DNA of 64,000 bases from Megalonaias nervosa (Eukaryota > Mollusca > Bivalvia > Unionida > Unionidae): NCBI GenBank assembly GCA_016617855.1, contig JAECUM010009299.1, positions 1 to 64,000 of the forward strand. Direction: 5' to 3'. The notes under the pieces are model-generated. The model saw only the letters and a list, made by a program, of their open reading frames with translations, searched no databases and had not been told where the DNA came from. Made by a program: the position numbers and the translations under genes. Below, piece after piece: positions 15,821 to 40,887 of this stretch; the first letter of the stretch is position 1, and every line of letters begins with the position of its first letter.

Positions 15821-16006
15821 GAAGTTATACTTGTACTGGTGGCCTCAGCAGAGAGCATGATCTCATGGTTATTAGTAATGACTACTGGAACACATGGAAA
15901 TGTTCAAACATTGATAAGAATTATTGTACTGATGTGGGAATGTTCTGCAACCATGCAGAAGGAATTGGTTATTGTGCCGTCGATTATTGCCAAAAAAGAA
16001 GAGAAG
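15821..16006 (+). CDS. Transmembrane-IAP gene: Cys-rich ectodomain exon (exon A)
   Basis: Open exon between CTCAG (ends 15820) and the donor GTACAT (16007), entering and leaving in phase 1. It encodes about 62 residues with eight cysteines (for example YTCTGG, WKCSN, YCTDVGMFCN, YCAVDYC). This density suggests disulfides in an extracellular domain. I cannot match it to a named domain. The acceptor's pyrimidine tract is weak. The frame stays open upstream to about 15763, with a Met codon at 15805, so a start inside this exon is possible but would give no clear signal peptide. Its neighbour in the same phase is exon B at 17533. Confidence 0.55.
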
Positions 16007-16267
16007 GTACATTTTGTGAGAGTGCACACTAACAAGATTATTGCGTGATGTTGGAATGCACAATTTTTATATGCATCTGAATATAAGACTCTGATTTATA
16101 ATGCTTGTGCAACTCATTTTGTTTTCAAATGTTCATCATTTTCATTATTATCTGGGAGCAATAATAATTGTCATAACAAAAGTCTATAAACTTTCTCAAT
16201 CAAAAATATGTAAATTTCAAATGATATTAAAGTTTTATTTTTCAACTTTTATGTCAGTTTGTATTTA

Positions 16268-16535
16268 CAGTGAAACCTGGCTTATTGGACACCTCAGCAT
16301 AAAGTACACCTGTTCATAAAGGACTTTATTAAAACCAGTCATCCCAAGTTTTCGTAACAATTTTCTTCTATATATAGGATGCATGTTCATAAAGGAAAAC
16401 ACAAGTTATGTAAACCCTTCTCCCAGGTTTTTATTTTAACTTTTACCACTATATAAAAGACACTTGTTCACAAAGTCACAATGAATAGAATTTTAGAATA
16501 GTTCTTTGGGTCTCCTTTATAGACTGGTTTCACTG
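16268..16535. mobile_element. Short MITE with pogo/Tigger-like termini
   Basis: The left end CAGTGAAACCTG and the right end, reverse-complemented, CAGTGAAACCAG form terminal inverted repeats, extended imperfectly inward (CTTATTGGAC against TCTATAAAGGA). CAGTgAAACCT-type ends are usual for pogo/Tigger elements. There is no coding capacity in 268 bp. TA precedes the left end; the right-hand TA is not clear. It lies between exons A and B of the IAP gene model. Confidence 0.65.
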
Positions 16536-16651
16536 TTTTATGTATATTATCTGTTGCTTGCAGACTTACTCGATGCTGAGAGTTGGGTCATGGAGCTTGA
16601 ATTAAGTCTTTAACAGCCCATTGTACCAAGATTTCCTTACTGTTATAACTA

Positions 16652-16805
16652 ATGCCTGATGATCATGACACTTCACCCTTGTTTGATTCTGTAACTTCCT
16701 CCCAAATTCCAACCGACACTACCAATACCTGCCATTTTTCCATTAAATTCTTAAATATTCTCAGCATACTTGTCACTTTCACATCTCTTAAAAATTATGT
16801 GAAAG
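16652..16805 (+). CDS. Possible alternative first exon of the transmembrane-IAP gene
   Basis: A Met-initiated frame of 51 codons plus one base ends at a strong donor, AAAG|GTAAGT, in phase 1, the same phase as every neighbouring exon. It could splice straight to exon B (17533). An in-frame stop two codons before the ATG fixes the start. The N-terminal half is polar (Asp, Ser, Thr), followed by a hydrophobic stretch (residues about 35-45, FLNILSILVTF) that could act as a signal anchor. Codon use does not prove it coding, and chance is not excluded. Confidence 0.28.
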
Positions 16806-17218
16806 GTAAGTTAAATTTGTTATTCAGTAGCCTCAAGCTTTGAAATAAATTATAGATAGTATATATATATATATTATTCCTTTTTACATAAAAAAGTATG
16901 TGACAAGATCTTAGACATTTTTTACTTTGCACCTTATTTACCTTCCACAAAGCAAGTGAATTCTCAAATGCTGTCTGATTCTAAATGAATAAATTTGCTT
17001 TTCAGTTTATTATGTTTCTTATTTAGGTCAACTGAAAGTCATTACATAACAGCATGATCTCTAACAGTTTTTCTCAATTACTTATTTTCTATTGGTATAC
17101 CTCCTCCCCATCCTATACGCTTCTGAGATTGAATCAAATTTGTAAAATTGTTGTATGTAGCAAATCAGATGCATTTCATTCCAAATTTGCTTGTAATATA
17201 ACACATTAATTTTTTTTC

Positions 17219-17400
17219 AGGAGCCACAGTGGCTTATTGATTAGTGTGTCAAACTCGTAACTGAAAGTGTGCAGGTTTAGATCTTACCATCGGACAGCTT
17301 GGGTCAACTACCTTGGTGTGTTCTTGGGCAAGCCACTTTACTCCAATTGCCTTGGCACTAACCTACTTGTGTTGCTGTGCAATAAAGCACCAATTTAAAG
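17219..17400 (+). mobile_element. tRNA-derived SINE family D
   Basis: The head GGAGCCACAGTGGCTTATTG with a tRNA-like A-box region is followed by GCAGGTTTAGATCTTACC (B-box-like), then CTTGGGCAAGCCACTTTAC, a block common to several animal SINEs. The tail is A-rich and contains CAATAAAGC. Single copy in this window, within the intron before exon B. Confidence 0.65.
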
Positions 17401-17532
17401 TAAAAATTTGTTTTCTTTAAAATTGTGGGAATATTCTGAAAAAATTATATTATAGGTTTGTGTAAAGGAGGACTTGAGTAGTGTCAAGATCTTTAGATAT
17501 GACTTCTTTAAAATGTATTTTTTTTTTTTCAG

Positions 17533-17826
17533 CAGGATATTATCCTGTACTGAACCTTCATTTAGATGCTGCCTTACATGACATTCATACGTTGGAAGAT
17601 TTCCAAAGACTTAAGTCCTTCCCAAATGAGCAAATTGGATACAAATACATTATGATGAATTTAAATGGAAGGAGAAAGATTAAATTCCAGCCTGGACCAT
17701 CATTTAGAAATAACACATGCCATTGTGACAAACATCCTGTGTACCAGCCAAATACATATCCAAAACAGCAACAAGTAAACCAGACCGAGGAAGTTGATTC
17801 TGAGGCCATTCATTCAAAGTATCACG
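17533..17826 (+). CDS. Transmembrane-IAP gene: second ectodomain exon (exon B)
   Basis: Preceded by a long T-tract and CAGCAG, a tandem (NAGNAG) acceptor that would add or drop one Ala. Ends at CACG|GTCAGT. Phase 1 on both sides, 98 codons plus one base. The residues are mostly polar, with one N-glycosylation-like site (NNTC) beside a Cys-His-Cys cluster (NTCHCDKH) and a Pro/Gln-rich juxtamembrane stalk. Only two cysteines are present, against eight in exon A. No named domain recognised. The following coding exon in phase is the transmembrane exon at 24223. Confidence 0.58.
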
Positions 17827-17883
17827 GTCAGTATTTGATCTTACACTGACAGAAGGTAAACACAGATGTCAATATGAGTATTA

Positions 17884-17913
17884 GTACACACACCACACAC
17901 ACACACACACAAA

Positions 17914-17980
<67 letters not shown>
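17884..17980. repeat. (AC)n then (TA)n microsatellites
   Basis: About 10 AC dinucleotides followed, after a short spacer, by about 28 TA dinucleotides. They directly abut the SINE head at 17981. Confidence 0.93.
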
Positions 17981-17983
<3 letters not shown>

Positions 17984-18120
17984 GGCTCCAGGTGGTCATG
18001 TGTTCTAAGGTGTTCACTCTTTACTGATCACTGCCAACTCACCTCTATCTGCAAGATTGCATGGCCAATATGGGTATGTGAGAAAGCTTACCTTGTGTCA
18101 GCGGTTCTTCTTCAAAACAT
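17981..18120 (+). mobile_element. SINE family A copy, 3'-decayed
   Basis: Matches the reverse complement of the 40.6-kb copy across the tRNA-like head and the first part of the body: GGGGCTCC, GTGGTCATGTGTTCTAA, CAACTCACCTC, GGCCAATATGGGTATGTGAG and GAAAGCTTAC. Similarity fades after about 18115, and no CAA tail is seen. Confidence 0.65.
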
Positions 18121-18639
18121 ATTACCCAACCATAATACCTTAGGAAAACTACTGCTACCTCACCAATCCATCCCTCCCAGGTTAAAACTTGTTAGCTTAA
18201 AAGCTAAAAGTTATCTGCACACCTAGGTGGCAGGTAGAGAGAGTGAGCTCTTTTTGATAACCAGGATTGGCACCAAATCCCATGAAATCAAGTTACTATT
18301 TCCACACATGCTGAGTAGCATGCTCTCTACAGACAGAGAGGCATTGCAAAATCTATACAAGCAGTAAGGGAAGTTTTCTACCTAAAAACAAGTTGGAAAA
18401 TTTTCTTCTTTGAAGAGAAGTATACTCCATCTATATATTTCCAACTTTTCTGTTCTTTCTGTAGTCACCGACAAAGTTTCCTAACTTTCTGTTACCACTT
18501 TGGCATCTAAACACACTTAGGCACGTTTGGTATGCACCTGCACGGGGCACGATGGCGTCCCCTCACATTTCCATAACCATATTAATAAGTGCATCTCTGG
18601 GGCATGATATAGAAAACTCATTTAGTATTGCTGTATAAT

Positions 18640-19200
18640 TTCCTGTGAGTCGGGATACATACAGTTAAGTTTCTGTATTGTCTTAGTGTCTAATTCATAG
18701 TCATATATGTGATGCTTTAGTGATTTTACCTGTATAGAACTTCATTCAGCTTTTCCTACAGGTACCATGGACTCATAATATTGTTGCATTTACTTCATAA
18801 GTATCAATAATGACACTTCAGTTCCTTTTTATGTGCATTTTTTATGTGTAACATAGAAAACTTGTTTATGTTACTGTATAGCTTCCATCGTGGCTGGATA
18901 AGTACGGGTAAGTTTTCTATACATGGTTTACTCAGTAGCCTCCAGCTCATACATGTAATTACTAGAAGCAATGCATCAGTGATTTTACCTGTATAGGCAT
19001 TCCATAATTGGCCTTTCTATGGGTAAATTCTTACTAGAATTGATTATTTGGCTTCCACTTCATGCATGCAGTTGCTAAAAGTGACTGTTCAGTGATTTTG
19101 CCTGTATACGCAGTCAGAATTGATCTTCCCAAAGGTTACTTGTTACTAGAATTAATTATTTAGTATCCATGTGCACCCCTTTATAGGTATTTATCATAGT
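18640..19200. repeat. Degenerate tandem repeats with an AGTGATTTTACCTGTATA core
   Basis: The core AGTGATTTTACCTGTATA, with slight variation, occurs at about 18719, 18968 and 19091. Each is preceded by a CAT...ATG(T/C)A stretch and followed by a CTTnCnnnGGT block. Spacing is uneven (about 250 and 120 bp). Function unknown. Confidence 0.6.
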
Positions 19201-19261
19201 GGGTACCTCTGCACCAACACTCATAAATTCTTAAAGCAGGACACTCACTACACTACATGTA

Positions 19262-19400
19262 CCAGAGAAATTATGCCACAATCAAGAAGGAATTTTTGGC
19301 TTTGATATTGGCATTGCAACACTTTGAAGTGTATATTGGTTCAGCTCCATCTCTGATTATTGTGCTTAGTGATCACAACCCCTTTTTTAAGACCATAGTT
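19262..19400 (+). pseudogene. Gypsy-like RNase H fragment
   Basis: One frame reads RNYATIKKEFLALILALQHF, then VYIG, then LSDHNPF, matching the Gypsy RNase H block (RNYATIEKEALA..ALQHF..Y..G.....TDHNPL-type). The expected TDH motif appears as SDH. The similarity covers only about 45 residues, with no flanking RT or integrase, so it is a scrap of an old element within the intron between exon B and the transmembrane exon. Confidence 0.65.
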
Positions 19401-23376: not shown

Positions 23377-23471
23377 CAGGAGACAAGATATCTGAAACAT
23401 CACTTTGCTCCATGCATAGTGAACACTCCCAGCTGAGAACTTATGACTGTCAAAATATGATTAACTATTGA
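23377..23471 (+). other. Possible alternative terminal exon (would give a soluble ectodomain)
   Basis: TTTATTCAGCAG is a good tandem acceptor much like that of exon B. In phase 1 from exon B, the frame reads about 30 codons with two cysteines and ends at TGA (23469-23471) before the transmembrane exon. If used, it would end the protein without the membrane helix and IAP tail. A second open frame follows in another phase (23504-23746). This may all be chance or a decayed exon. Confidence 0.2.
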
Positions 23472-24222: not shown

Positions 24223-24297
24223 GTGGAGTACTTTGTGCTTGTGTTATAATTGGTTGGTTTATTATATGCTGCGTCGTAAAGTTATGTATTGATTATG
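24223..24297 (+). CDS. Transmembrane-IAP gene: membrane-helix exon
   Basis: A 75-base symmetric exon, phase 1 to phase 1, with a strong acceptor (TTTCTTTTCAG) and donor (TATG|GTAAGC). It encodes one continuous hydrophobic helix, GVLCACVIIGWFIICCVVKL, followed by CIDY. The length (about 20 residues) and the Lys after it fit a type I single-pass span with the following exon on the cytosolic side. Four cysteines in or beside the span could be palmitoylated (inference). It joins in phase to exon B upstream and to the 26925 exon downstream. A one-helix exon between Cys-rich and IAP exons is the key evidence for a membrane-anchored IAP. Confidence 0.65.
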
Positions 24298-25039
24298 GTA
24301 AGCAATTTGATACAAAGAAAATAAATGTCTGTGGTACATAATCACAGTTATGTGATTTTTACACTTTTTATTATCATTGCAAATGTAGCAGGGCATGTAA
24401 AATTACCATGTCTGTTGGGTTTAATGTTATGCATTTAGGTCAGTTTTAAGGTATTTTAATAATTACTATATTTAGTATCTGCTATATAATACATGTTCAT
24501 AACATGTAATCAATTAATACAGCAACATGTACAGCATTGAAACGTACATGTAAGCAAGGTTTATTATAAAATATTCCACATTTATATCAGTCTTGGCAAC
24601 ATGCTAAAGGCTTCATCCTGGTAACTTTGAGCTATGGAATGTTTTATTGTTGATTCACCTAGGTTTCCTCTTCTTATGTGTATGTCACCTCTCTTGAAAT
24701 TTACATAAAAGAATCAATTAGAAGGATTTCATGTTCATTCCATTTCATGTTCATTCCATGCTGAATATATTCTATGAAATCAATACTGAAAAATGCTTCA
24801 CAATATTTCAGAAACTTCCAGAAATAAGCAAAAGACTTAATACAGCCCCATTGACCCCCAAAATCCATATATATTTATATTTCTTATATAACCAAGGTAA
24901 AATATTATATAAAAGACTAGAAGAGATCTTTCAATGCACTTCATATTATCTGATATTACATTACATCTGAATTTATTTTAAACAGAAGTTACTGTAGTTT
25001 CATATTTTATACCCCTGCCACTAAAATAGTTGAATTATA

Positions 25040-25735
25040 GAAGAATCCCTATTTCTATTCATCTACCCTTCCATCCAGCATACAGTCTATACAAGAATCC
25101 CTGTCTATTTATCTATCCTTCCATCCAGTATACAGTCTATACAAGAATCCCTATGTCTGTCCATCTATCCTTCCATCCAGTATACAGTCTATACAAGAAT
25201 CCCTATGTCTATTTACTATCCTTCCATCCAGCATAGTCTATACAAGAATCCCTATGTCTATTCATCTACCCTTCCATCCAGCATACAGTCTATTCAAGAA
25301 TCTCTATGTCTATTTATCTATCCTTCCATCCAGCATAGTCTATACAAGAATCCCTATTTCTATTCATCTACCCTTCCATCCAGCATACAGTCTATACAAG
25401 AATCCCTGTCTATTTATCTATCCTTCCATCCAGTATACAGTCTATACAAGAATCCCTATGTCTATTTATCTATCCTTCCATCCAGCATACAGTCTATACA
25501 AGAATCCCTATGTCTATTCATCAATCCTTCCATCCAGCATAGTCTATACAAGAATCCCTATGTCTATTCATCTATCCTTCCATCCAGTATAGTCTATACA
25601 AGAATCCCTATGTCTATTCATCTATCCTTCCATCCAGTATACAGTCTATACAAGAATCCCAATATCTTTTCTTCTGTCCTTCCATACAAGAATCCCTATG
25701 TATATCTATCCTTCCATCCAGCATACAATCTAGTT
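25040..25735. repeat. Minisatellite, 14 units of about 50 bp
   Basis: Each unit carries AAGAATCCCTATGTCTATT, a CATCTATCC variant, and CTTCCATCCAGCATACAGTC. Fourteen units of 47-52 bp can be counted, the last two degenerate (one short). Length varies mainly by loss of ACA before GTCTATACA and of ATG after CCCT. Units 1-2 match units 7-8 in their variants, suggesting duplication of a block of six. It lies in the intron after the transmembrane exon. Open frames across it are a by-product of the repeat. Confidence 0.93.
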
Positions 25736-25759
25736 AGTACAACTTGTCCTGCATTTTTT

Positions 25760-26480
25760 TGATGGATTGATGTGAAGCTTGATAAATCTCATAAAATGTC
25801 ATCACCTAATGAGATAGGTATCAACAAATTCCTTTCTTTCTGCAGTTTTTATATGCCTGCCATGAGATGGCCTGTATTATGCTATGATGTCTGTCCATCC
25901 ATGTTTTACTAACTTTGTTTCTTCATAATAGCTTGAACATCAGCTAGGGAAGAAGCACTGATTTGGGTGTCAAAAGGTCAAAAGACAAGATCAGTGTTTA
26001 ACTTATAAGAAGAAAAATTGGTTTCTGCACAATGACACTATATCACAGATCTGGACCATACTTTGTGGGTGGCTTCCACTTGGGGTAATCATGAAGCTTG
26101 GTAATATTATCATATTATCATGTGCAAATTACTAGGCCCCTGCATTTTGTCTCACAGATTTGAATAGATCACCATGAAACTTAAGTTATGATCACCATCT
26201 GAAGATATACATATCAACAAATCTCTCTACTCTAGCAATTTTTGTTACAGTAATTGTATGTTTTGATTTAGGGACCAAATCTTGTGAATGCCACTAGGCT
26301 CATGATTTTTAGCTGTTGACTTTCCACAATGTTTTGTTAGAGTTATTGCCCTTTTTGTTTTGTAGTTGAATGTAGTTTGTGACAGAATCTTGTGAATGCA
26401 ACCTTGCAGCTAGTCTTATATTGTTTGATGGATTACTGTGAAATTTAGCACATATATATATTCATCATCTGAAGAGTTTT
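25760..26480. repeat. Degenerate dispersed repeat, several copies
   Basis: The theme TTGATGGATTGATGTGAAGC, then AAATCTCATAA, then ATCAACAAAT recurs imperfectly near 25760, 26160 (ATCACCATGAAACTTAAG and CATCTGAAGATATACATATC) and 26425 (GATGGATTACTGTGAAATTT and CATCATCTGAAGAG). Old tandem copies of a non-coding repeat in the intron. Confidence 0.45.
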
Positions 26481-26924
26481 TGCAAAATTACTATATTCAA
26501 TTGAAATAACTGTCAATTACTCTTCCTTATGTCAAATAATTATGAGATAATATACATCTGTGTCTTGTTGATTGGAATGAACCAAGATGTGCTGTATGTA
26601 TAAAGAGAAGTAATTGACATCTTTTTAATAGTTTCTTTTAGTTTCAGCTGAAAAAATCTGCTGCAATGTGCTATAATAAGTGTGCATTTATTTATTATTG
26701 TTATTTAATTCAGTGTCTGTCTGACTATGCTTAGTCATGTGAGGCTTAGGTATTATTTTCCCACCTGTGGAACTGTGTTAAAGCTTTTGCCAGTCATGTG
26801 GGGTGGGGAAAGGGTCATCAATGTAATACAGATATTACAGAACACTTGTTAATTAATAGACCACTAGCTGAATAAAGATGCAAAATTTATATGTATTATA
26901 ATTAATTTTTGTTCTTACACACAG

Positions 26925-27830
26925 GCACATTTTTGTGCAATATTCAAAAGAAGTTGATGTCCCCCAACAATACAATAAAAGAAACCAGAGGATGTAACAT
27001 TGCTTGTCAGCCTTTAGAAGGCAGAAGAGATGAAAATACAGATACTGAGTCTTTTATTAATTGCCTGTGGTGGCCTAATGTGCAGACATCAAGACTATGT
27101 AGAGTGCAACCTTTCCTGTGCAATGGGAATGAAGTTTCAGAGATGGACAAAAATATGCTGAAAGAGAGAGCACTACATGGAACTGTAGATGTCACCACCC
27201 AAACCTCAGTTAGTACAGAATCAGAGGTTAAGGGTCTCAGCATAAAGCAAACAACTCTGGAAGTCACTGTCAAAACCTTAGATGATACATGGATAGAGGA
27301 TCTCCAAGTGAAGAAGGGATTCTCTGAAGTCAGTGAGGTTGAAAATCTTGGAGGAAAGGAAGTAACTGTGAAAACCAATGCCAAGGCCACTAATAGCACT
27401 GTAGAGGACCTCACAAGAGAGGTGTTTGTTCAAGTTGGTACTAAAGCTAATGAACAGACAGACGTTTGTAAGCTCAAATCAGTTAAGGAATTTTCGAAAA
27501 CCACACTGAAAACCTCATTTCAAGATGTTGAAAGTTGTAGAGGGGAGTGTCGTGTGATTATGCAAGGGGAAGAACTTGAAAGCTCTGATGACCGTATTAC
27601 TTCACATGAACCGGTCAAGGAAGACTACATTAGTGATGATCGAAAGATAGATGTTGTGAATCAATCCTTACACCAAGCAACATGCAAATCTGAAGGTGAT
27701 AAAATTGAAGACAGAAGCAATGACATTTCTGACTATCAAGATATACACAAGGGGAAAAATCAACTGGATGAATCTGGTGAAATATTTGAATCAGTAGAAA
27801 AGCACAAGAAACAGAGTTACAGAGCTAAAG
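26925..27830 (+). CDS. IAP gene exon: juxtamembrane/linker region
   Basis: Acceptor CTTACACACAG, donor AAAG|GTAAAC, phase 1 both sides, 302 codons. The frame begins GTFLCNIQKKL (following CIDY of the membrane exon) and then becomes polar, rich in Glu, Lys, Thr, Ser and Asp with no recognised domain. Repeating patterns such as EVTVKT are visible twice. Likely a disordered cytoplasmic linker. The frame is blocked by a stop shortly upstream of the acceptor, so an exon start at 26925 is needed unless translation starts at the internal Met. Confidence 0.85.
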
Positions 27831-28573: not shown

Positions 28574-28633
<60 letters not shown>

Positions 28634-31600
28634 GAGAGGGAGAGATTTCCCTATAGTCACAAAACTACTTTTTTTTTAGCTTGGATCATAAAATTCAGAA
28701 TTTGAAACCACACTTAAATTCTCTTTGCAAGCATTCAGAGGCACATACAGTATGTCAGTCCTGAAATTTTCTGTTATAATTTCGACCATTGCAGAGTTCA
28801 AAATGATCAGAATTTACTAAATTTTCAGCAATTATGCTAAAGAAGTTCATGACTGGGACCTGGAGACATTTATTTGAATTTCCTATTTAGTATCTCTGTC
28901 ATTAATGTTTACAGGAAGTGATGCAAGAGATAGAGCTTTCACCTCAACTACAAGTCAGCAATGGTTAGAAGAGAATCCAGATTCTGATATCAGCCTGTCA
29001 TTCAGAGACCCAGGCTTGTCAGAGGAGAAAGACAAGATTAAAACATGTTTTCAGGAAGATAGGAAATGGCCAAAGTCACAGCCATCAGTCATTGGTGTGC
29101 AACAAGAGTTTACTCCAGTAACAAGCACTGTGACAGAAGAATCTCTATTACTAGTCACAGAGGAATCTTATGATGCTTCTTCCCTGAAGTACAAGCAAAT
29201 AAATGATGAAAATTCTGACCATTCTTCTGACTTTATTTCTCTTGAGTCTGAGAAAAAGAGGAAGAAATCTTTATGTTCAAAATTACATTTAAAGACCACA
29301 GGGAACAGTTCAAGTTTTGTTTTCCATAAAAGTAAATTTAAATATGCAGAGGATTTTAAAAATATAAATGGAGTAAAATTGTCCCCTAGTAAAAAACAAG
29401 AGACAAGTTTATCAGTGAGAGCTTCCTTTGCAGCAGAGGTTGCGGGTTGTAACCAGAAACAAGATGCTAATGAAACTGAACAGCAAATCTTATCAGACAT
29501 GGATGTCAGTGTGCAGAAAAAGAAGTGTGAGATTGAAATTGGTGACAGAACTGCTAGAGACATTGACCTGCAAGAGAAGCAAAAGTACAATCTTAGACAA
29601 ATTGTATGGCTTCCAAGAAATTCGCTTCCGCTGCCCAGACTTGGCAGGGATGCAGTAGTTGGGTTTGTTGAAGAACAGACCAGTGATGAACATGGAGGGT
29701 CTACCTTGCCTCCTTCTGAACAGGAAGAACTGAAAGAAATGTTAAGACTACTTGCTTCAGATAATGTACCTGGACCACAGATTACTATGAAATATGAGAT
29801 GCTCCGACTTTGCACAATGAAAACCTTTCCAGGACAGGATCGACCATTTGCCATTAGAATAATAGGAGCTGGATTTTATTATGCTGGACACCAAGACCAG
29901 GTGATATGTTATTGCTGTGGCAATCGTAAGGACAGTTGGGTTCTAGGAGACATCCCACTGCTGATTCACCAGAACATGGCTCCAGATTGTGACTTTTTCA
30001 CACATAATGCTCTAGTCAATGTTCCAATTAGTAAAGCAAATTCCACTGCTGATGTTCGTCTTGTCACAATCCAAAGATCTGATGGTTCAAATCAATCAGA
30101 CACGGCGCAGGGTGAGTCATCTTTGATGCTTCCATCAAGTGAACAGAATCAGGTCAGTGTTTTGAATATGCCTCACCAAATGTTGGTCACTAACAAAAGC
30201 TTGCCATCAAATCAGCTGATGGCTTCAGGGAGACAAAATGTATTGGACAATGTGCAAACTGTTTCAACTGACACATACTCCATGGAAGATCCACCACCCA
30301 AGTATCCACAGTATGCAGTTAAGAACATGAGGATTAACTCCTTCCAGGGATGGCCAGCAGAACTTCAACAGAAACCAGAGGAAATGGCTGAATGTGGATT
30401 CTACTATGCAGGTACAGTAGGTTTGGATATACTCTCCAGCTTTGCATAAACCACTGTCTATATGTATGGATCAAGTATTAGAAACTGACTTGATTGAAAT
30501 GTTGGCACTTCTTTGGTAGTATGTGTACCTTTCCTGGGGCATGCCCAAGGAGTTATCTGACCATGATGAACATGTGTGTGTATACATTCAGAGACGTAAG
30601 AGTTGTGACACCAGTATCTGGTAACCCAAAATTAATAGAACCTTTTAAGTTATGCATTTTGTATCATGTTTTATAAACTCCTTTAGCAGCTCCTGTACCT
30701 GTAGAGAATAAAAATGTCTTTGGAAAATACATAAAGTGATAGGTGTTAAATGAAGTGTCAAAGTGGCATTTAATGAATTCTACCCCATAACTAAATTTAA
30801 AGCAACCCAAGTCCCTATTGCTTTGATATTAACTTGCACATAATTGAAAATGTACAAATTTTGTGGACTTTGTTGTCACCCAAAACCACAAATTTAAAGA
30901 CCAAATGAAAATTAGTCACATATGATAAAGAAGCCCCTTACCATTTTTTTACACTGTGTTTCATTCATAGAGATCAACAAAGCTATTTAATAAATCAAGA
31001 TCATTTCTGTAATCTGGTAAAAATATTAGCTCTTACACATGTATGATTTATTTTAACCCTTAAAGAAAAGAATTATAATGCATTTATATATTGTTTGAGT
31101 GCACACATATGTATACAGTAGCCATAATTTACACTCATTACCTTAAATCGCTATCTTGTGATACATGTGAGGATAGAGAGAAATCAGAAAAAGATAAGGT
31201 ATTCAAACATTGTTACTGAAAATGAATAAATAGGAAATGATACTTTAAATGAAAATTAGATTTAATACTTATTCAATTGAAGTGAAATTGTTGTTCAAAA
31301 TGTTGAATTCTTGTGAAAGCATATCTTATTTTATCAATGAATGTTTAATCCCATTGACTAAAAATAAGAAAACTACTACTTGAGGCACAATTACTAATGA
31401 AACACTGTATTTACACTAATTGGCTCTGTGTATTGAAACTCACACTTCACTGATTTTCAGACAAAACCACTAAATCAACATCTTGTCAAAAAAGTCAGCT
31501 GGTGTACACAAATATTTGTCGAGTAAATAATGCTGAAATTGCTAAATTAAATAAGTCCAACATTCTCAAAGCCATGGATAATTATGTCCATTCCTTGACA

Positions 31601-34600
31601 CATTTTTGCATGAGCTGCAATTATCCATTCAGCATGAATTGGCATGATTGATAAGGTTTAAGTAAAGTCTGGTGGATGAAGTTGGTTTGTACATCACAGG
31701 CAGGCTCAAACACAAAAGTAATTCCATTGTTTTGCAGCATCTTCATACTTTGATAGGCTCTTAAGCACATCAGATGTTTAGCTTGTTAACTGTATTGAGC
31801 AAGAGCCAGTTGGTCATGTGTTGAGTTCACAAGTGGAAGGACGGCATTATCCGAGCTAATGGGAATCTACTTAATGGAATTTTACCACGCTTCAACCGAC
31901 ATGTTAACACCATGGTCATCAGAAAGTAATTAATGGTGCAACTTTATTGACACTGTTTTTAAGGAAGAGATCATACACATGCACTTTAATAAGCATTAGC
32001 ATGGTGTTGTTGGCTGTATCAGTTCATTTTGATGTTGAGTGTAAGTGAGTTATCTAGACAGGTATTTGATTCATGCTCATACAGGTGGTAACATTGTTTT
32101 AACCATTGAAGCAGATATCATTTTGTTGTCATCATAGTTTTGTTCTTTTTTTATTTTTTATTTGAGGTATTTGTACAATTTATCCATTAAATTTAACACC
32201 TTTAAATATGCAAACTTTCAGAGGCAAAATGCATGAATTAAGTAACCATGAAAATGTATTTTCTGTTGTTTGTTGTCAATACCACAAAAGTAAACAATAC
32301 TACAGTAGTTTCATTAACCCAAATGAATACATGTTTGGTGTGTTTATATATATGTTTGTACATTTGTTTTCAGGTACATATTTATTTGGGAAGGGAGGTG
32401 ATTAGTTAGTAGTTGGAATTTTGTTTTTCAGGTGTATGATGATAAATTTTACAATTGACTTCATGTTAGGTTTTGAGTCATGAAACTGAAAACTTGGTGC
32501 AGATCAGGTTGAGTCTCATCAGTGTCATTTGTAATGGGAGATTTGTTGCTTTGCCAATTCTGAACCCTATGCCTTGCTACAGTTGTTTGGATTTATATCA
32601 GGGAAAAGGGGATCAGCACAGATAACAATTAAGTCTCTGAATTTGTTTATTGATGACGCAGCAAATGATTTGCAATGAGTTTTTAATTGACCCTGACAAA
32701 ATACATATCACAATAATTGTGAAAAAGTCTTAATTAAATTTAAAAAAGTACTTATACTGAAGAAAGTTTGACTTTTTTAAATTCAAGGATTCAGCGATTG
32801 TGTGCGTTGTTTTCACTGCGGTGTTGGATTGCGACATTGGATGAGTGAAGATAATCCATGGATTGAACATGCAAGATGGTCAACTGAATGTATATATGTA
32901 CTCAGGATGAAGGGGGAAGAGTTTGTCTCCCTGGTAAAGATGGCAGTAGCAATAGCTGAGAGGGTAAGATAGTTAAATCTGCATTGCCAGAGTATTACAT
33001 TGAGAAATAAATTCCTTACAGTAAAGTTGTAAAATCTGTTCATAGATATTTTTCTTGGTGATATTGTAGTGTTCCATTATGTAAGAGACCATTCCCACCC
33101 TCTTTTTTGTTCTTCCATTTAAATATTGCTACAGTTTTGGTGCACTGTACAGTTAGTATAGTTCTTATGGGTCCCAGATTTTTTTCTCTAGTGTCAGAAA
33201 CTACTACTAGTATTAAATGTTAAAGAATCTCTAACATCAGTATATCAACTCATTAACTCTGCATGCTATATTTACACATCATGATGTTATACCCTATTTC
33301 TGAGCTCTGTACTTTTAGGATATATCCAAGTGGGTGGTATTGCAGAGAAGTAGACAGCTGTAACTGAGGAATGGCACTAAATAATTAGACTTTCTACTTG
33401 CATTACAAAATACAATGGGAAAGACCTTATTTTTGAGACCCAGTTTTCTTAGGCCGAAAATTAAATGTTTTCTGAAGTAGAGTTTGTGTAAAGATTTAAG
33501 ACTTTATGACTGAGATGTAATGCAGTAATGCAGACCAATCTGAACTGCACATGTGCACAGATAGGTGAACCTATGCAAAAAGTAGGATAAGTTTGAGATT
33601 TGGAGTAAAAAGTGGCCAGGACACGAAAATCTTGGGTCCAATGTGTCAAAACAAAAATGAAATCAAAACAAAGACAGTTAAATATTTATCTTTTAATACA
33701 TGCATGTGCTAAATAGCCAATCAAAAGCAGTGTTTTTCATACACCTAGGCATCTGGCTACACAAAAATCGCTCAGAAGCAGATTTATTTTTGAATGTATT
33801 CAGAAGTAACCCAAAAATGCATTTCCTACCCCCATTTCAAGTGAAAAATTTCCTACCCCCATTTCAGGTGAAAATGACAAGAATCTCCAGGGGTTAAAGA
33901 GTTCAAAGCACTAATCAGAAAAATAAGATTGTTTCTTGTACTTGAACAAAACTTGAAAAGGGATGAGTTTTGTATAGAAATCATCTGCTCGTCTCTCCTT
34001 TATTTGTAATATTATACTCCAGTATATCAGGACAATATGGTATGCATCAAAAGTTTTTGAAGTCAGACTTAATTCAAAGTATTAGGACTTTGTTAACTTT
34101 TTTATTCTTTATCAGGAGGAAGCAATAAGAAATAATGGTGAAGGAAACCAAGCACTTAAAAATAGCAATGAAACAGCCCCTGCAGTTCCTGCAAAGCAAG
34201 GTAATAAAGGCATAACCCCTAAAAAAATCTATACTATTCAAACTGGAGGATACACAAGGATTTAGACCATCATATTGGTGGTATACATAATGGTATTGTA
34301 GAGTCCTAAGTGTGGCAGAACAGAAACCTGTAATTATATGCTTTTGAAATATGCTTTTGTACATATTTTTGGGGTGATAGCTGTTTCATTTGTAATTTAT
34401 AGAAAAGTGTCAGTGACTGAGTTTACTCAGTACAAACTTCCACCATCTTCTCATAAATGTGACATCTTAGCAGAATGTTGTTGTTGTTGTTGTTGTTGTG
34501 GGGCTTAACGCCATTTTTCAGCACACGATAGGCCTTAGCAGAATGTAAACTTTCATTGCTAATCAGATTATAAGTGCACACTTGTACATTTGCCATGCAT

Positions 34601-35222
34601 AACATTATGTAATTTTATGATATCATGAAATATTGTACCTGTTACATATAGAAAATTATGATATGGGTATGTTAACCATAAGAAAACAGCAGTCTTATGA
34701 TACAACGTTTTGCATGATTATAATCATCTGTTTACTGAGTTTATCTTAAATAAGTCAGATAAATTCCTTCAATTCTGTAGGTCCAAACAAAAGTGGTACA
34801 ACTAATTCCAATGCTGCCAAAGACTTGCCAGGCAGTGTGGGAGCCACAGATAGCAATGTTGTTAAGGGGGCAGCATCCACCCTGCCACCTGGAAATTCAG
34901 AGATACAGAAATATTTGCTGACTGATGCAGCTCAGAGCGTACTAGATATGGGCTACCAACCCAAGCTGGTGTTGCATGCTATTGAAAGGGTTCTGATGAA
35001 AAAGGGTAAGGGTTTAAATGCTATGAGATTATTGTTAGTTTTGCTTTGAAAAAAGCAAAATTTAATATTATGTACCCAGGTAATGATTTAAATTGGTGTT
35101 TAAAAATTTTTTCATGTAATAACCCAGAATTTCATCAAAATTATCAAAGCACATAAAAAAAGGATTCATTTTAAGTGGATTGTAAAAAACTTTCTGTACA
35201 AAAATATTGCCACATACATACA

Positions 35223-35253
<31 letters not shown>

Positions 35254-38200
35254 CTTTTGCAATTTGGTTAGATTTAATTAATTAATTCTTATGTTTACAT
35301 ACACAGCCTCCATAATAGTAAGAAGTAAGAATCAATCATAAGTGTCATGAATTCCATCGCTTCATTAAGTCACTCAGCGGATACACATACATTATGTTTT
35401 TCTTATTTAATTATAGTGCTCTGTGATGGAAACTCGGTTGACCATTGAAGCAGCCATGTGTTCTGCAAGCAGAATTGATAGAATCTTTGTACACTTGTGT
35501 AAAAAATATCAGTCCATTGAAATACTCAGGGTTGTAGGTCTGCCAGTCCTGTGGAAAATTTTGCAAACTACATAGACCTCTACTGCATGGGCCAGGAGAA
35601 ATTGTTCAGTTTTGTAGATTTTTTTTACTGGTCTGCATGACTTGTGATTTGTTAAAAAAAATTAAGCTAATTTTCATCCTGAGGTTGAGTTTGTTTTAAA
35701 TTTGACAATCTGATATCTCCGATGCCTCTCCAGATTAAAAATGGACCCATTCAGATTCTTCGGTAAATCTTTAGTAATTTTGACACTGGTTCTTTAAAAA
35801 ATATCAGTTTTACTAATTTAAAAAGACTATTTCACAATTTGTTTTAAATATTGATTTTCAATTGTGATCAGGAAGTAAAGAACTGACTGGACAAATTATA
35901 ATGGAAGCTGTATTTGAAATTGATGAAGAGAACAAGTCACAAAGTAAAACTCAGCCAGTATCTTTGCAGCCTCCTGAAGGAGATAAAAGCAATGGAAAAG
36001 GTAATATGTGACTGTTAGAAAATTTGTTACTTTTAATTCTTCCATTTGTGACAGCAAGAGAAGTAGTAGCATTATTATCCAATTATAAACCCATGCATGA
36101 TGATTAACCCATACCCCAATTCTATTTAGGTTCAGCAAAAGTATGATAAAAGTAAGCCTTTACAATCAATAAATCTACCCCCAACTTTTCAACAAATTTA
36201 CAAGGAAGACACCTTGGGCTGATATTGAAGAAATACTGGGGTTTTTTTTGTTGGGGTGGTTGTTTCATGGTTGTCTGCTTATGTCTTCTCACAGTTTTGT
36301 TTCAGTGTGATCACATGATTGAGTGTGGTAAATAACAATATAAATATGGCAGGGATAAAAATGAAATTGCATGTACATTATATAATTATTGCCTTTATAA
36401 GAGGTTTGCATGTGTAGACCTAACTAAAATAAAATTCTCAGAAGTTGTGAACATAGTTGCAGCTGTGATTTGAAACACTGTTTGGCTGAAGATTTAATCA
36501 TTCATAAAGATGTACAGAACAACTATAATGCACAGTGACTTGCCATTTTTGAGTTATGTCTGTCCTTTTTAACTGGAATAGATTCTCTCTATTCATCATT
36601 TTGTTAAGAAAATCTTTTTTTGTGTTGGATAAAGTCTTGTTTGATTTATTATCAGTTACAGCATTCAGGCTAGCCCTTGAAATTCACTATTGGACTTCTC
36701 AAAACCATCTCTGTACACATTTCCTGGCTTCAAATTCATGAATAAATGAACTTAATCTTCCTTTTCTTCAGATCATTGTTTATATGAATACAGATCTCCA
36801 CATATCAGTGTTTATGGAAGTTCAGCTGATAGTGATTTTACTATTGATTAAATTTTTCTTATTTGTCTCCATGTCCAGATTTGTTCCAGAATTGTTCCAT
36901 TACCAGCAATTGATTGCAAATGTCAGGTATTAGACTTATGGACTGTCAGCCAGATTAGTCACAGGTAAAGATGGCAACATAATGTAGGAACATTTTGTAC
37001 TGCCAAGCCCTAATAATTTGTTCTCCTTTGCCCTTGAGAGCAGAAATCAGTTGAGTGAGAAATTAATGATAACCAAACTGGAAATTTTAATTAACCCCAA
37101 TTAGAAAGTAATTATACAAAGCATATGGTTGTTTTGAATAGTGTGCATAGATTTATCGGGCAGAACTATTAACAGTCATCTGTTTCAACCTCAGGTCAGC
37201 TATATTGTTTGGAATTCTCAAAACCAGCTCTGCATTTTGTCTGGCCTCAATTTCACCAGTAAATGGATTCGGCTGTTATTTTCTTCAGATAATTGTTTCT
37301 TTCAGTAAAGACTTTGCTGTGAATTAAATTGCATTTGTTGAATATTTTTATTGTACAGTTTGGTATTACTTGTAATTAGAAAGTGTTGATATCATTTTTT
37401 TGGTGCTAAACATCACAAGTTTCAGACACCGTTTCAGATATTTAATTGTAAATATGGTCATTTTATTTGCAGCATGGAGAGCTGGATGGTCTTGTGTGCT
37501 CTAAATTGTCTCATTAAAATAACACAACAACAATTGATATATCATAGTAGTAATGGTATATTTACATTGCAATGTATCATCATCATCAGATTTAATACAG
37601 TGACAGTCTCTGCAGATATATATGCCAGCAACATGTTAAGATTGTGAAGCACTCACTCCACCTCCACCGCACTCCCTTGGCTCAAGTTAATTTATTTCCA
37701 GGGCATTAATACAGAGTAGCATATTTACCGAACAAGTTGCATCAGTGCTAGTACATTTCAGTGAATATGTGTTGGTCAGATGTAAATAGCAACAGTCCAT
37801 GGGCAATAGTCAGTAGGAAAAGATGTAAGCTTCATCTTGGTACACATCCAAGCACATGCTTTCATTTTAAGCGGTAATAAAATTAGTGTAAACATTTTGA
37901 TACTATGGCAACATTGTTGTAGGAAATTGCCAGTGTGGCAGTGAAACTTTAGACTTGATCAGTTGATATCACTGGTTTATCAGAGAAAAGAAAGCTCATA
38001 TCCAGGTTTGAAAATATTATGTACATGTAACTGTGATTGTTGATTAATTTATTGAATGCTTGATTGGTGTGTAATAGCAAATCAGTACACAAAAGATTAT
38101 TCACAGAAAATTTTGTTCCTGCCATCAAACTTCAACTGTAATTTAATGTTGACACATGATGTGCAGCGATTAAACAAACTTAAGAAAGTTGGAAAACATT

Positions 38201-40554
38201 GTGTTTACAGCATTATTGCCTTGCCAGTTAATATTACCATGTTGGTATCACTCTTCCAATGGATTTGTAGTCATTATTATTGTTGACATCCATTATTAAA
38301 GCTCCTGAAGGTTATTTATCTTCTCCATCAGTTTCTGTAATCAGCTTCAGTTACACAGTAAATCATTACCTTTTTAACAAGCATGCAGACATTATGAATG
38401 TAGTGAACAAACTAATTTTCACTAACATTTTATATTTCCAAAAATTATTTTATGAAAATATAAGCATGACAGAAATGCTATTGTCTGCTAGATTGGATGG
38501 ACAGTTCTAGAACATTGGCACTAAAAATAGAGATTAGTTGCCACCACAAGTAAACAGATGGGCTTATGCATGTTGATTAATAAAATTACTTTCATTGCTG
38601 TTTTGTTATTGCTTGTTTTAACATCTTATTGAACACATATACTGCCAAATTATAATTTTGCTAATTGGTAGTTCATTTAAATCACATCAATACACATTGA
38701 TTAAATTTAAAGATATGTTAACATTAAATGATGTACAGCACACACGCACACACACACATATACAGACACAAACACACACTGTATGCCCATAGCTTGCACC
38801 TTGACATGCTATGATGCAGGTGTCTTGAAATGTTAACATGATTTACATGTATGACTGTATCTTATATGCAAAAAAACCCACTTGATAATCTAATGTCAGA
38901 TGCTTCTAAACAGTACCTGCCATGATTTTGACAAAGAGTGAATCGGTTAGATCCTCTGATTTAACAAAAACTGCTATTGGCACTATTGTGATTCCTGTTC
39001 TGTCTAGCATTACTTTATTATCAGTTTCCTGATCTCATATTGCTAACTCAGCAGATCTTATTTGTGACTTTATTCAAGGATTGATTTTGGGCTAATTTAT
39101 GTTCCCATTTATTTTTCAGCTAACATAATTAATGATGCCAGTAACAAACAAGATGGACGGCAAGGTAAGAACTCATTTTAGCATAATTTAAATACACTTT
39201 AGGATATATACACAAGTATATAAGGTAAAAAGAGAGAAATAATAATAAACAAAATAAAATTCTACAAAGTATCTCCATCTTCCTGACATCTGACCTATGC
39301 GTTCTTGTTGGTTTTTTTTATTTCTCTTTTCTTTTTAAACTAATTTTCTAAAATATACAGATCATACATAACAACCTTGCAAAGTTCAGATATTTGCCAG
39401 AAAAATTTTATCCCAAAGAGCAAGATCCTTTTGTTTAAATTCTTTTCAGCATTTTCAGAAAAATGTTCAGACCTATCCATTCACATTGCTTGTTCAGTAT
39501 AATGACCTTGATTATCAGGTAGTCCTTTAATAATGTACATTTGATTACAGTTTTGTTCATTTCACTTGGTTTTAGTTCTTATAGTTAATGACCTATTAAA
39601 ACCCATTTTGTGAATTGTATGTATAGCTCACAAAAAAAATGTTTGTAGAAAAACTCATGTTAATTAAAGTGTTTTCAGTTATAATGTGACAAATAGTTGT
39701 GTAAGAAAAGTAATAACTGTAGCCAATATTTTTAATGTTATTCATATTGTCAGTGTATTGTATTTTTGAGGTTACATGTACTGCTACTCCCAGTACAACC
39801 ATTCACAACACTTGCTAAATTCCCACCCCCTCATCCACCTAATATGTTGAGAATCTACAACACTGCCTGGTATGTTTGCTATTTGTTATTTTGCAAGCCT
39901 TTTATTCTTTCTGGTGGAATAACTGTTGTTACACAGTTAATTTGTTATACAGTTAATTAACTGGTTTGAGGTAGAGTCTGCAAAGTTAAAGAATGGTATT
40001 TTATGATTAGTTAAATCCTTACTTCACTTGTGTAGATTTGTGTACGAAACCATTAATCAGGTCTTTATTTAGACAAGGATACATGAAATAATTCAGATGA
40101 GCTGATTTATAGTGATGACTACATATTTGAATCAGACAGAAACTAAACATGTCTGTAAACTGTTTAAGTACTTCTTTTATTTGATTTGAAGCAGTTCATA
40201 ACTATTGCATCCACTACGACTCAATCTTCAGTCAGAGCTTCCTGGACCCTGCAGTAACTAGTCATCTGTATAATTTAGATTCCCTTCCATTTACAAATAC
40301 TTTACTTTACAGGGCATGAGGCATCAGGAAATATCCAGTCAGAGGAATCCCAGATAGATCCAGAAAAAATCGTGAAAGAACACAGAGAATTACGTGAAGC
40401 GACACTGTGCAAAATCTGCTTAGAAAATATCATCAGTGTGGTTTTTCTGCCTTGTGGTCACCTTGTGACATGTTCTGACTGTGCCCCAGCCATGAGGAAA
40501 TGCCCAATCTGCAGGACATTGATTAAAGGGACAGTGAAGACATTTTATGGATAA
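26925..40554 (+). CDS. Inhibitor-of-apoptosis (IAP) family protein, BIR-BIR-UBA-RING; cytoplasmic part of the transmembrane-IAP model
   Basis: Exons 26925-27830, 28915-30411, 32788-32963, 34116-34200, 34781-35005, 35872-36000, 39120-39164 and 40313-40554 join in frame at GT-AG introns to a TAA stop. With the three upstream exons the model has about 1,286 residues. In that numbering BIR1 is about 780-849, BIR2 about 955-1024, UBA about 1113-1148 and RING about 1239-1275. Both BIRs keep C-x2-C-x16-H-x6-C. IAP RING proteins bind caspases or signalling partners through BIR domains and attach ubiquitin through the RING; UBA binds ubiquitin chains. About 590 residues of low-complexity, acidic/Ser/Thr-rich sequence precede BIR1, far longer than in ordinary IAPs. 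If the gene instead starts here, a Met at about 26954 is the first in-frame start. IAP identity is firm; the membrane anchor is inferred from exon phase. Confidence 0.9.
28013..28138 (-). mobile_element. tRNA-derived SINE family C
   Basis: On the - strand from 28137 it reads GGAGCCAAGGTATCTTAGCT, then GGTAGAGCATC (A-box), an anticodon-like arm around TTCATAATCC, then GGGTTGCAGGTTTAATACC (B-box-like). This is clearly tRNA-related. The body continues through GCCAGCCTGTGTTGGCTG to about 28013. It is not a functional tRNA: the acceptor stem does not pair and there is a SINE-like body. Confidence 0.65.
28575..28628. repeat. (GT)n microsatellite
   Basis: About 26 GT dinucleotides, followed by a short AGAGAG tract, in the intron before the large BIR1 exon. 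Confidence 0.95.
28915..30411 (+). CDS. IAP gene exon: linker, BIR1 and first half of BIR2
   Basis: A 1,497-base exon (acceptor GTTTACAG, donor GCAG|GTACAG, phase 1 both sides). After about 290 residues of charged, low-complexity sequence, BIR1 begins near 29787. Its zinc ligands are in VICYCCGN and IHQNMAPDC. The Gly-Phe-Tyr-Tyr core (GAGFYYAGHQDQV) is present. The PW.EH and W before the last Cys, which shape the IBM-binding groove in type II BIRs, are replaced (PLLIH, QNMAPDC), so BIR1 is probably a type I BIR. BIR2 starts at 30327 (MRINSFQGWP) and is cut by the intron just after GFYYAG. Confidence 0.93.
30412..32787. other. Intron inside BIR2; nothing recognised
   Basis: A 2.4-kb AT-rich intron with no SINE or domain-bearing frame that I could identify. 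The exon frame runs on for 12 codons past the donor before TAA, so retention would truncate BIR2 and remove UBA and RING. Confidence 0.6.
32788..32963 (+). CDS. IAP gene exon: second half of BIR2
   Basis: Acceptor TTCAAG, donor GAGAGG|GTAAGA; enters in phase 1 and leaves in phase 0. It encodes CVRCFHCGVGLRHW, then SEDNPWIEHARWSTEC: C-x2-C, His and Cys complete the BIR2 zinc site. Acidic SED, the PW.EH segment and the Trp three residues before the last Cys are the features that form the IBM (IAP-binding-motif) groove in type II BIRs such as XIAP BIR3. BIR2 is therefore the likely caspase/antagonist-binding domain. Confidence 0.95.
34116..34200 (+). CDS. IAP gene exon: short linker
   Basis: An 85-base exon (acceptor CTTTATCAG, donor CAAG|GTAATA), phase 0 in and phase 1 out. 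It encodes a polar Asn/Glu/Ala linker (EEAIRNNGEGN...) between BIR2 and UBA. It is supported by frame continuity on both sides. Confidence 0.85.
34478..34533 (-). mobile_element. SINE family A, 56-bp 5'-truncated copy with perfect target duplication
   Basis: Only the 3' end of the family is present: (TTG)n then GGGCTTAACGCCATTTTTCA and GCACACGATAGG. It is flanked by an exact 12-base repeat CTTAGCAGAATG (34466-34477 and 34534-34545). The duplication shows that the small fragment inserted as such and was not left by deletion. Confidence 0.88.
34781..35005 (+). CDS. IAP gene exon: UBA domain
   Basis: Acceptor TTCTGTAG, donor AAGG|GTAAGG, phase 1 both sides, 75 codons. The second half reads SEIQKYLLTDAAQSVLDMGY, then PKLVLHAIERVL: the helix, the MGY loop and the next helix of a UBA domain, as found between BIRs and RING in BIRC2/3, XIAP and related IAPs. 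The role is ubiquitin-chain binding (known for the family). The first half is a Ser/Gly/Ala linker. Confidence 0.9.
35213..35252. repeat. (CATA)n microsatellite
   Basis: Ten tandem CATA units in the intron after the UBA exon. Confidence 0.95.
35872..36000 (+). CDS. IAP gene exon: end of UBA and linker
   Basis: Acceptor TTGTGATCAG, donor AAAG|GTAATA, phase 1 both sides, 43 codons. It begins GSKELTGQIIMEAVFEID, which completes the last UBA helix, then a polar linker. Confidence 0.88.
36001..39119. other. 3.1-kb intron, no gene; possible SINE-A scrap
   Basis: AT-rich with no domain-bearing frame. At 37474-37535 a GAGCTGGATGGTCTTGTGTG head followed closely by ACACAACAACAA looks like an internally deleted SINE family A copy (weak). 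A short AC-rich tract lies at about 38741-38780. Confidence 0.5.
39120..39164 (+). CDS. IAP gene exon: 45-base micro-linker
   Basis: Acceptor ATTTTTCAG, donor CAAG|GTAAGA, phase 1 both sides; encodes 15 residues (ANIINDASNKQDGRQ). The exon is symmetric, so skipping keeps the frame. Supported by strong splice sites and by phase; length alone gives little coding evidence. Confidence 0.7.
40313..40554 (+). CDS. IAP gene last exon: RING domain and stop
   Basis: Acceptor TTTACTTTACAG, stop TAA at 40552-40554. The RING reads CKICLEN, then LPCGHLVTCSDC, then CPICR, then IKGTVKTFYG: C3HC4 ligands with the IAP-type spacing and the C-terminal hydrophobic tail that IAP RINGs need to dimerise and recruit E2 (family knowledge). 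Expected activity is E3 ubiquitin ligase. The likely 3' UTR includes the SINE at 40627; AATAAA motifs occur near 41037 and 41058. Confidence 0.97.
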
Positions 40555-40626
40555 GAGTTACCTTAGTGAAATATAAACAGACATCCCATGTAACAGAAAC
40601 AACAAAAACACATCGAAGCCACTTGC

Positions 40627-40876: not shown

Positions 40877-40887
40877 AAGCCACTTGC

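Follow-up and report, generated by a model that had tools for sequence, protein, structure and literature searches.

Exon organisation of the locus

Twelve coding exons on the plus strand were found at positions 14994 to 40554 of the window (the whole 64,000-nucleotide stretch of Megalonaias nervosa DNA that was analysed), and these join to give a single open frame of 1,304 residues. The encoded chain has, in order, a candidate signal peptide, an eight-Cys ectodomain, one helix, nearly 600 polar residues and an IAP. All eleven exons of the initial annotation are present, with GT/AG borders, one frame and no stop at any junction. That set was incomplete, as a further 5' coding exon (exon 1; 14994–15020) could be added, with a phase 0 join to 15793 as acceptor in place of the previously chosen 15821. 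Exon 1 provides the start codon and the N-terminal half of the candidate signal peptide (MFLIFTIEL), and its donor ranks among the top 0.7% of GT sites. The bases before it in the first exon seen (14926–14993) are putative 5' UTR; the acceptor before 14926 is in the top 1.9% of AG sites in the window, and an in-frame stop at 14946 lies upstream of the ATG. The ATG at 14994 has a weak start context (C at -3), and other first exons also fit.

Exon 2 (15793–16006) encodes the remainder of the signal peptide and a segment with six Cys residues, and the join is open and in frame. Its acceptor at 15793 is weak, in only the top 12%, and the alternative at 15821 is in the top 3.6%. With the acceptor at 15793 the phases of exon 2 are 0-1, so the earlier proposal that the three exons upstream of the IAP are all 1-1, which requires 15821, holds for exons 3 and 4. 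Exon 3 (17533–17826; 1-1, open) encodes two more Cys residues, two N-glycosylation sequons, at N140 and N163, and an acidic stalk. The symmetric exon 4 (24223–24297; 1-1) encodes the helix and is followed by intron 4 (24298–26924), the candidate junction between the ectodomain-helix and IAP halves.

Exon 5 (26925–27830; 302 codons, 1-1, open) encodes a basic juxtamembrane segment and a polar, predicted cytosolic linker. The linker continues into exon 6 (28915–30411), which also contains BIR1 (29796–29999) and the first 82 bases of BIR2, and the remainder of BIR2 (to 32900) is in exon 7 (32788–32963). A linker exon with phases 0-1 follows (exon 8; 34116–34200). Exon 9 (34781–35005) encodes further linker and the first part of a candidate UBA (from 34894), which extends into exon 10 (35872–36000) and ends at about 35930. 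Exon 11 (39120–39164) is a linker joined in frame, and exon 12 (40313–40554) encodes the RING (40399–40530), the C-terminal tail and the stop codon.

Domains of the predicted protein

Exon 1 and exon 2 from 15793 together encode MFLIFTIELFQVSMILVSG, the candidate signal peptide. The eight Cys residues previously assigned to one segment were confirmed in number, with six of them in the first ectodomain exon and two in the next. The number is even, and both sequons are on the outer side of the helix. The single transmembrane helix of the initial annotation was recovered at aa 180–202, with a peak 19-residue hydropathy of 2.73; the next highest values in the chain, 1.88 and 1.66, belong to the candidate signal peptide and to part of the RING, respectively. 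The net charge is -3 before the helix and +3 after it, the basic residues being supplied by exon 5, which is the arrangement expected under the positive-inside rule.

No family, the PA domain included, was matched by aa 1–204 in Pfam at E values up to 10, and no credible match to the ectodomain was found in the PDB at the same limit. Two cytohesin-1 sequences retrieved from the PDB (E 0.25 and 0.28) were taken as chance matches. Structures predicted separately for the segments encoded by exons 2 and 3, without an alignment, had a mean pLDDT of 44.0 and 45.3, respectively. Viral contigs were also scanned with the ectodomain and helix, giving one pattern match and none that could be confirmed.

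For the 3' half, the order BIR-BIR-UBA-RING had been proposed. The two BIRs (PF00653, E 1.3e-34 for the whole protein) and the RING (PF13920, E 3.7e-14; aa 1254–1297 of 1304, C-terminal to the BIRs) are above the Pfam cut-offs. The UBA was not found by Pfam at E values up to 10, and is represented by a weak alignment (7.5 bits) to the cIAP1 chain 3t6p in the expected place between BIR2 and the RING. The zinc ligands (CxxC, His and Cys) are at aligned places in both BIRs, and W, D and W of the last BIR are aligned with cIAP1 BIR3. These three residues of BIR2 are predicted to line the peptide groove for IAP-binding motifs. In cIAP1/2 a CARD, or in molluscs a death domain, is expected; as neither was detected in the Pfam scan at E values up to 10, the protein is assigned to the cIAP/XIAP class and is not called a cIAP. 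Judged by its sequence, the 3' part is an ordinary member of that class. When the chain was compared with the window using tblastn (E up to 10), the match of BIR2 to BIR1 was the only one that was not to self, with no separate row for exon 1 (9 codons).

The candidate junction between exons 4 and 5

The end of exon 4 and the start of exon 5 are both in phase 1, and the acceptor of exon 5 is good (top 1.2%), indicating that something is spliced to exon 5. An unlikely alternative to a single chain is a tandem of two genes. The first would encode a small type I membrane protein whose very short tail stops within exon 4 or immediately beyond it; the second would encode a cytosolic cIAP/XIAP-class IAP and have its own promoter, with a 5' UTR exon located in intron 4 and translation from a Met in exon 5. 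The agreement in phase would arise by chance in about one third of cases. Read-through past exon 4 would add a 14-residue tail, GKQFDTKKINVCGT, with a stop at 24339 and a poly(A) hexamer at 24320. However, this hexamer, 23 bases past the exon 4 donor, precedes the stop, and almost no 3' UTR would be left. The only other AATAAA or ATTAAA in intron 4, at 26871, is 54 bases before exon 5 and would leave the promoter of the IAP no room. Hexamers are as few as this in 9% of windows of equal size.

A start of the IAP within exon 5 is possible at either of two Met codons. The first Met of the exon, expected near 26954, is in fact at 26957, only 32 bases after the acceptor, but has T at both -3 and +4, which counts against it. 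The second, at 27143, is 218 bases past the acceptor in a strong context (G at -3 and +4). The interval itself also argues against a gene end followed by a gene start, since the 2.6 kb gap is of intron size, includes a 650-base tandem repeat (25036–25685) and lacks CpG from 24543 to 27463, the longest run without CpG in the window. As a clear CpG island is also lacking at the proposed 5' end, the missing CpG in intron 4 counts only mildly. No other host gene was found in the rest of the window. The T-over-A skew was mixed, with introns 3, 4 and 10 (3 of 11) exceeding all 2,000 flank blocks and introns 5 to 9 unremarkable; when the repeat was removed, the excess in intron 4 was reached by 3.2% of flank blocks. 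Rfam (gathering score) and ARAGORN (bacterial code) searches found nothing.

In a further arrangement, considered very unlikely, the locus has two products: the 5' promoter drives a membrane form, and an alternative start, within intron 4 or exon 5, gives a cytosolic form that predominates. The context at 27143 would suit such a start, and omission of the symmetric exons 3 and 4 from a transcript would preserve the frame. However, loss of exon 4 alone would direct the IAP to the secretory pathway, and no sign of a second promoter was seen in the CpG-free interval.

Coding potential of the upstream exons

The chance of an open frame in the required phase was calculated from the stop frequency in introns (0.0634 per codon), before allowing for site choice. 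It was 0.0096 for exon 2, 0.0016 for exon 3, 0.19 for exon 4, 2.6e-9 for exon 5 and 6.4e-15 for exon 6; the joint value across exons 2–4 was about 3e-6. A set of 899 decoy acceptor-donor pairs was also assembled (448 from the minus strand, 312 from the plus-strand flanks and 139 from introns). Only 18 of the 899 were open with 1-1 phases, and none of these encoded a helix with a hydropathy of at least 2.5.

When a codon model was trained on exons 6–12, the combined score of exon 3 (11.3) was above that of every intron decoy (best 5.0) but was exceeded by the best decoys from the minus strand (up to 40.9) and the plus-strand flanks (up to 35.9). Exons 2 (-1.5) and 4 (-0.9) were not distinctive under this model. 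The very highest decoys were in or opposite a reverse-transcriptase ORF, and a group near 17.8 was in a 3' UTR repeat. With exons 5–12 as the training set, 0.19% of 527 overlapping, stop-free windows from introns scored at least as high as exon 2, compared with 0 of 312 for exon 3 and 73% of 4,746 for exon 4.

It is highly improbable that the IAP alone is real and that the exons upstream of it belong to a dead gene or are open by chance, as the undistinguished codon scores of exons 2 and 4 and an ectodomain without a known relative in Pfam or the PDB stand against the small joint chance of open frames, the lack of any comparable helix exon among the decoys, and the coherent order of signal, paired cysteines, sequons, acidic stalk and helix.

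A candidate receptor-type IAP

IAPs are regarded as soluble proteins that reach receptor complexes via adaptors. The gene described here probably encodes a receptor-type IAP. The single receptor-like chain put forward in the initial annotation is favoured by the signal-peptide exon, the charge asymmetry of the helix, the matching phases and the little room in 2.6 kb for a gene end and a gene start, with the possible start in exon 5 as the point on which it is qualified.

The product would then be a type I membrane protein, with the signal peptide directing the N terminus out of the cytosol. The eight-Cys ectodomain would be outside the cell or in a lumen, the helix would span the membrane, and the long flexible polar tail would hold a BIR-BIR-UBA-RING ligase in the cytosol. 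Clustering driven by a ligand may pair the C-terminal RINGs as dimers. BIR2 could capture partners with an exposed IAP-binding motif, either caspases or an IMD/RIPK-like adaptor, and BIR1 could bind a TRAF- or TAB-like adaptor. Ubiquitination of these partners, or of the ligase itself, at the membrane might lead to NF-kB-type survival signalling or to removal of the receptor with its cargo. Overall, the protein would be a one-chain equivalent of receptor, adaptor and cIAP/DIAP2.

This more specific proposal, of a one-component surface receptor with a complete IAP ligase tail through which a ligand switches caspase capture and NF-kB-type ubiquitin signalling without TRADD/TRAF2 or IMD/FADD, is tentative and is held with slightly less than even confidence. 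That confidence applies jointly to the origin it includes, in which phase 1 exons for the signal, ectodomain and helix were placed upstream of the first coding exon of an ancestral cIAP/XIAP-type gene.

If correct, a natural receptor-IAP fusion would link a signal from outside the cell directly to the control of ubiquitin and caspases, and might place cell death or immunity under the immediate influence of that signal. It would also offer a simple system to test how clustering switches on IAP ligases. Bivalves and snails keep many IAP genes, and a membrane form might bear on these large numbers.

Activation of cIAP through RING dimerisation and recruitment of cIAPs to receptors are described in the excerpt of PMC7290580 used here, and that of PMC9496462 places DIAP2 downstream of PGRP-LC. 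The initial annotation knew of no described family with this order of domains, in agreement with the portions of the open-access literature searched, in which no membrane IAP was found. A phrase search for membrane IAPs returned matches that, by their titles and the starts of their abstracts, were about islet amyloid, intestinal alkaline phosphatase and phosphate nanoparticles. The word "transmembrane" has no occurrence in the main text of two surveys of bivalve IAPs (PMC8917759 and PMC7831173), suggesting that membrane IAPs may have been overlooked and are not necessarily absent. Such proteins, if they exist, can escape surveys in which BIR, RING, UBA and death domains are the only features scored.

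Comparison with known systems

The best PDB match of the IAP half is cIAP1, with 83.8, 7.5 and 76.5 bits for BIR2, the UBA and the RING, respectively, aligned to chain 3t6p. For BIR1 alone, the best single-domain alignment (60.0 bits) was to the cIAP1 chain 3m1d. The BIRs of NAIP are also matched by BIR1 and BIR2, but no NACHT or LRR of the kind found in NAIP and NLRs was detected here by Pfam. The protein differs from cIAP1/cIAP2 (BIRC2/3), XIAP and Drosophila DIAP2 in having two BIRs rather than three and no CARD or death domain by Pfam, and in that coding exons for a signal peptide, ectodomain and helix precede the BIR exon. We know of no signal peptide or transmembrane helix in the known IAPs, which are cytosolic or nuclear. 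To our knowledge, the PA-TM-RING ligases contain no BIR or UBA, and they differ further in their ectodomain, as that encoded here has no PA domain or other Pfam match. However, these ligases (RNF43, ZNRF3, RNF13 and RNF167), as outlined in the excerpt of PMC7291719, likewise combine a signal peptide, an ectodomain, one helix and a cytosolic RING.

Among bivalve IAPs, no membrane form is described in the excerpts covering the oyster architectures, including BIRC9–12 (PMC8917759), and clam types A–G (PMC7831173). The exon layout of the IAP half fits the published rules for IAP genes, as far as these are given in the same excerpt of PMC7831173. In XIAP and cIAP, BIR1 and the start of the last BIR are in one exon, as is the case here. 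In bivalve IAPs a BIR is divided between two exons as roughly 80 and 120 bases (82 and 113 here), the next exon has phase 0 and phase 1 introns (exon 8 here, with the place and phases of its clam counterpart), and the RING is in the last exon (exon 12 here). A helix carried by members of a normally cytosolic immune family has a precedent in the membrane-bound NLRs of sponges, as presented in the excerpt of PMC12909245.

Structure of the predicted gene

The region 7200-42500 was inspected by direct reading and the gene was reassembled by script, with splice sites scored using general matrices. All eleven exons of the initial annotation were recovered with GT/AG borders and were stop-free when joined, though the start of its first exon was moved 28 bases upstream, from the acceptor at 15821 to that at 15793 (exon 2, 15793-16006). 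An additional twelfth coding exon (exon 1, 14994-15020), with a good donor and phase 0, joins acceptor 15793 to give the N-terminus MFLIFTIELFQVSMILVSG-SYTC, which resembles a signal peptide leading into the Cys-rich segment. Only two fitting first exons with donors scoring at least 4 were found in 9-15.8 kb, the more hydrophobic being 14994-15020. When the range was widened to nearly the window start and donors of at least 0 were admitted, 69 first-exon combinations fitted, four of which, using three other donors, start with a more hydrophobic sequence. One of these, a fair rival at 14388-14468, encodes a very hydrophobic N-terminus (MLDTFHFLVVILYHICFTTQ...) in frame with 15793 but has a weaker donor. 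Because rival first exons fit, and because acceptor 15821, which requires a phase-1 first exon, outscores 15793 (top 3.6% versus top 12%), the modelled 5' end is considered no more than likely.

The predicted chain of 1,304 residues consists of a candidate signal peptide (aa 1-19), an ectodomain (aa 20-178) with eight cysteines (23, 46, 54, 61, 70, 75, 143 and 145) and N-glycosylation sequons at aa 140 and 163, a transmembrane helix (aa 180-202), a polar linker (aa 204-799), BIR1 (aa 800-867), BIR2 (aa 978-1042), UBA (aa about 1130-1186) and RING (aa 1254-1297). Net charge is -3 over the 20 residues preceding the helix and +3 over the 30 following. As exon 5 (26925-27830) supplies the basic residues just inside, its join to exon 4 (24223-24297) would form a stop-transfer segment of the usual kind.

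The IAP half

The BIR-BIR-UBA-RING order first proposed for this half was borne out by Pfam for two BIR and one RING, all above cut-off, while the UBA corresponds to a weak 7.5-bit alignment to 3t6p. This cIAP1 chain, which we take to be the closed BIR3-UBA-CARD-RING form, was the best among the 60 listed of 117 matching PDB sequences (83.8 bits for BIR2, 76.5 for RING). BIR1 searched alone matched 46 PDB sequences; NAIP ranked top through the sum of three BIRs, and the best single-domain match was cIAP1 chain 3m1d (60.0 bits). The W, D and W of cIAP1 BIR3, presumably lining the BIR peptide groove, are kept at the aligned places in BIR2. The second Trp position is occupied by Met in BIR1, which would fit a BIR that binds adaptors instead of IAP-binding motifs.

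In clam IAP genes (PMC7831173) a BIR is divided over two exons at about 80 and 120 bases, the next exon is flanked by phase 0 and phase 1 introns and the RING lies in the last exon; the same paper states for XIAP and cIAP that one exon holds BIR1 together with the beginning of the last BIR. In the present gene BIR2 is divided 82/113 bases between exons 6 (28915-30411) and 7 (32788-32963), exon 6 encodes BIR1 as well as the start of BIR2, exon 8 (34116-34200) is phase 0-1 and the last exon (40313-40554) carries the RING; the 3' half is thus a regular IAP gene of cIAP/XIAP layout. Exons 1-5 precede the exon that is the first coding one in mammals. The reading frame stays open across the whole of exon 5 (302 codons, chance 2.6e-9) and exon 6 (499 codons, chance 6.4e-15), and the IAP protein therefore reaches at least into exon 5.

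A short repeat beginning GTTGTTG...GCCATTTTTCAGCACA was seen by eye at 34480-34540 and 40620-40880, the latter copy lying just past the end of the coding sequence, probably within the 3' UTR.

One transcript or two

The joined receptor form is probably the main product. Phases are equal at the 24297/26925 junction and the exon 5 acceptor is good (top 1.2%). Intron 4 (24298-26924) has only two AATAAA/ATTAAA sites, 24320 and 26871, and neither sits where one gene could readily end and a new promoter follow, though about 9% of windows of its size are as poor in such hexamers. Its sense-strand T excess, repeat removed, is reached by 3.2% of flank blocks, and 24543-27463 is the longest CpG-free run in the window. 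However, the CpG mark is also missing at the proposed 5' end. Many genes have a first intron in the 5' UTR with a Met soon after the acceptor, and Met 26957 lies just 32 bases into exon 5; moreover, the start context is strong at Met 27143 and weak at the proposed ATG 14994. Two separate genes are considered unlikely, and a locus making both forms, mainly the cytosolic one, less likely again.

The chance of being open in the required phase is 0.0096, 0.0016 and 0.19 for exons 2, 3 (17533-17826) and 4, respectively. Exon 3 scores above all intron decoys but below the best decoys elsewhere, many of the top ones falling in or opposite a reverse-transcriptase ORF, and exons 2 and 4 are not distinctive by score against decoys. 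Among 899 decoy acceptor-donor pairs, of which 18 were open and 1-1, not one encoded a helix. The encoded features make a sensible order. Exons 2-4 are taken as real, and it is highly improbable that they arose by chance.

Read-through past the exon 4 donor (24298-24341) would add a short tail, GKQFDTKKINVCGT, ending at a stop at 24339, with the poly(A) hexamer at 24320; intronic polyadenylation there could possibly give a short receptor form without the IAP half. Intron 4 also includes a tandem repeat (25036-25685; 12.8 copies of a 52 or 102 base unit), in which many AG sites score well as acceptors.

Other elements in the window

A 642-codon ORF encoding a reverse transcriptase domain (RVT_1, E 5.1e-32) lies on the minus strand at 5317-7245; it is CpG-rich relative to the rest of the window, so is perhaps a young non-LTR element. 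A DDE transposase remnant (PF13843, E 1.5e-10), which we take to be piggyBac-like, was found on the plus strand at 54994-55633. An open frame at 52964-53287, which had no Pfam match, may be its N-terminal part.

Possible signalling and comparison with known systems

The closed cIAP1 monomer is inactive and requires RING dimerisation, and cIAPs are brought by TRAF2 to TNFR-family and other receptors (PMC7290580). In flies, DIAP2 works below the receptor PGRP-LC in a pathway running through IMD, FADD and DREDD, and adds K63 chains (PMC9496462). Judged from domain content, a receptor that carried an IAP as its tail would need no recruiting steps, and ligand-driven clustering could lead directly to RING dimerisation, permitted by a flexible tail of nearly 600 residues. 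Such a receptor might signal in an NF-kB-type manner, trap caspases or proteins with an IAP-binding motif at the membrane, or itself be removed.

We know of no BIRs in the PA-TM-RING ligases. These are receptor-like RING ligases (PMC7291719). Two bivalve IAP surveys catalogue many domain orders (PMC8917759, PMC7831173). Their main texts never use the words 'transmembrane', 'membrane' or 'signal peptide', which suggests that neither survey searched for membrane forms. IAP numbers or expansions have been reported for Aplysia, Bulinus and giant clam, and the passages on IAPs in these reports do not mention helices. The sponge NLRs with helices are an example of a normally cytosolic immune family that is able to carry a membrane anchor (PMC12909245).
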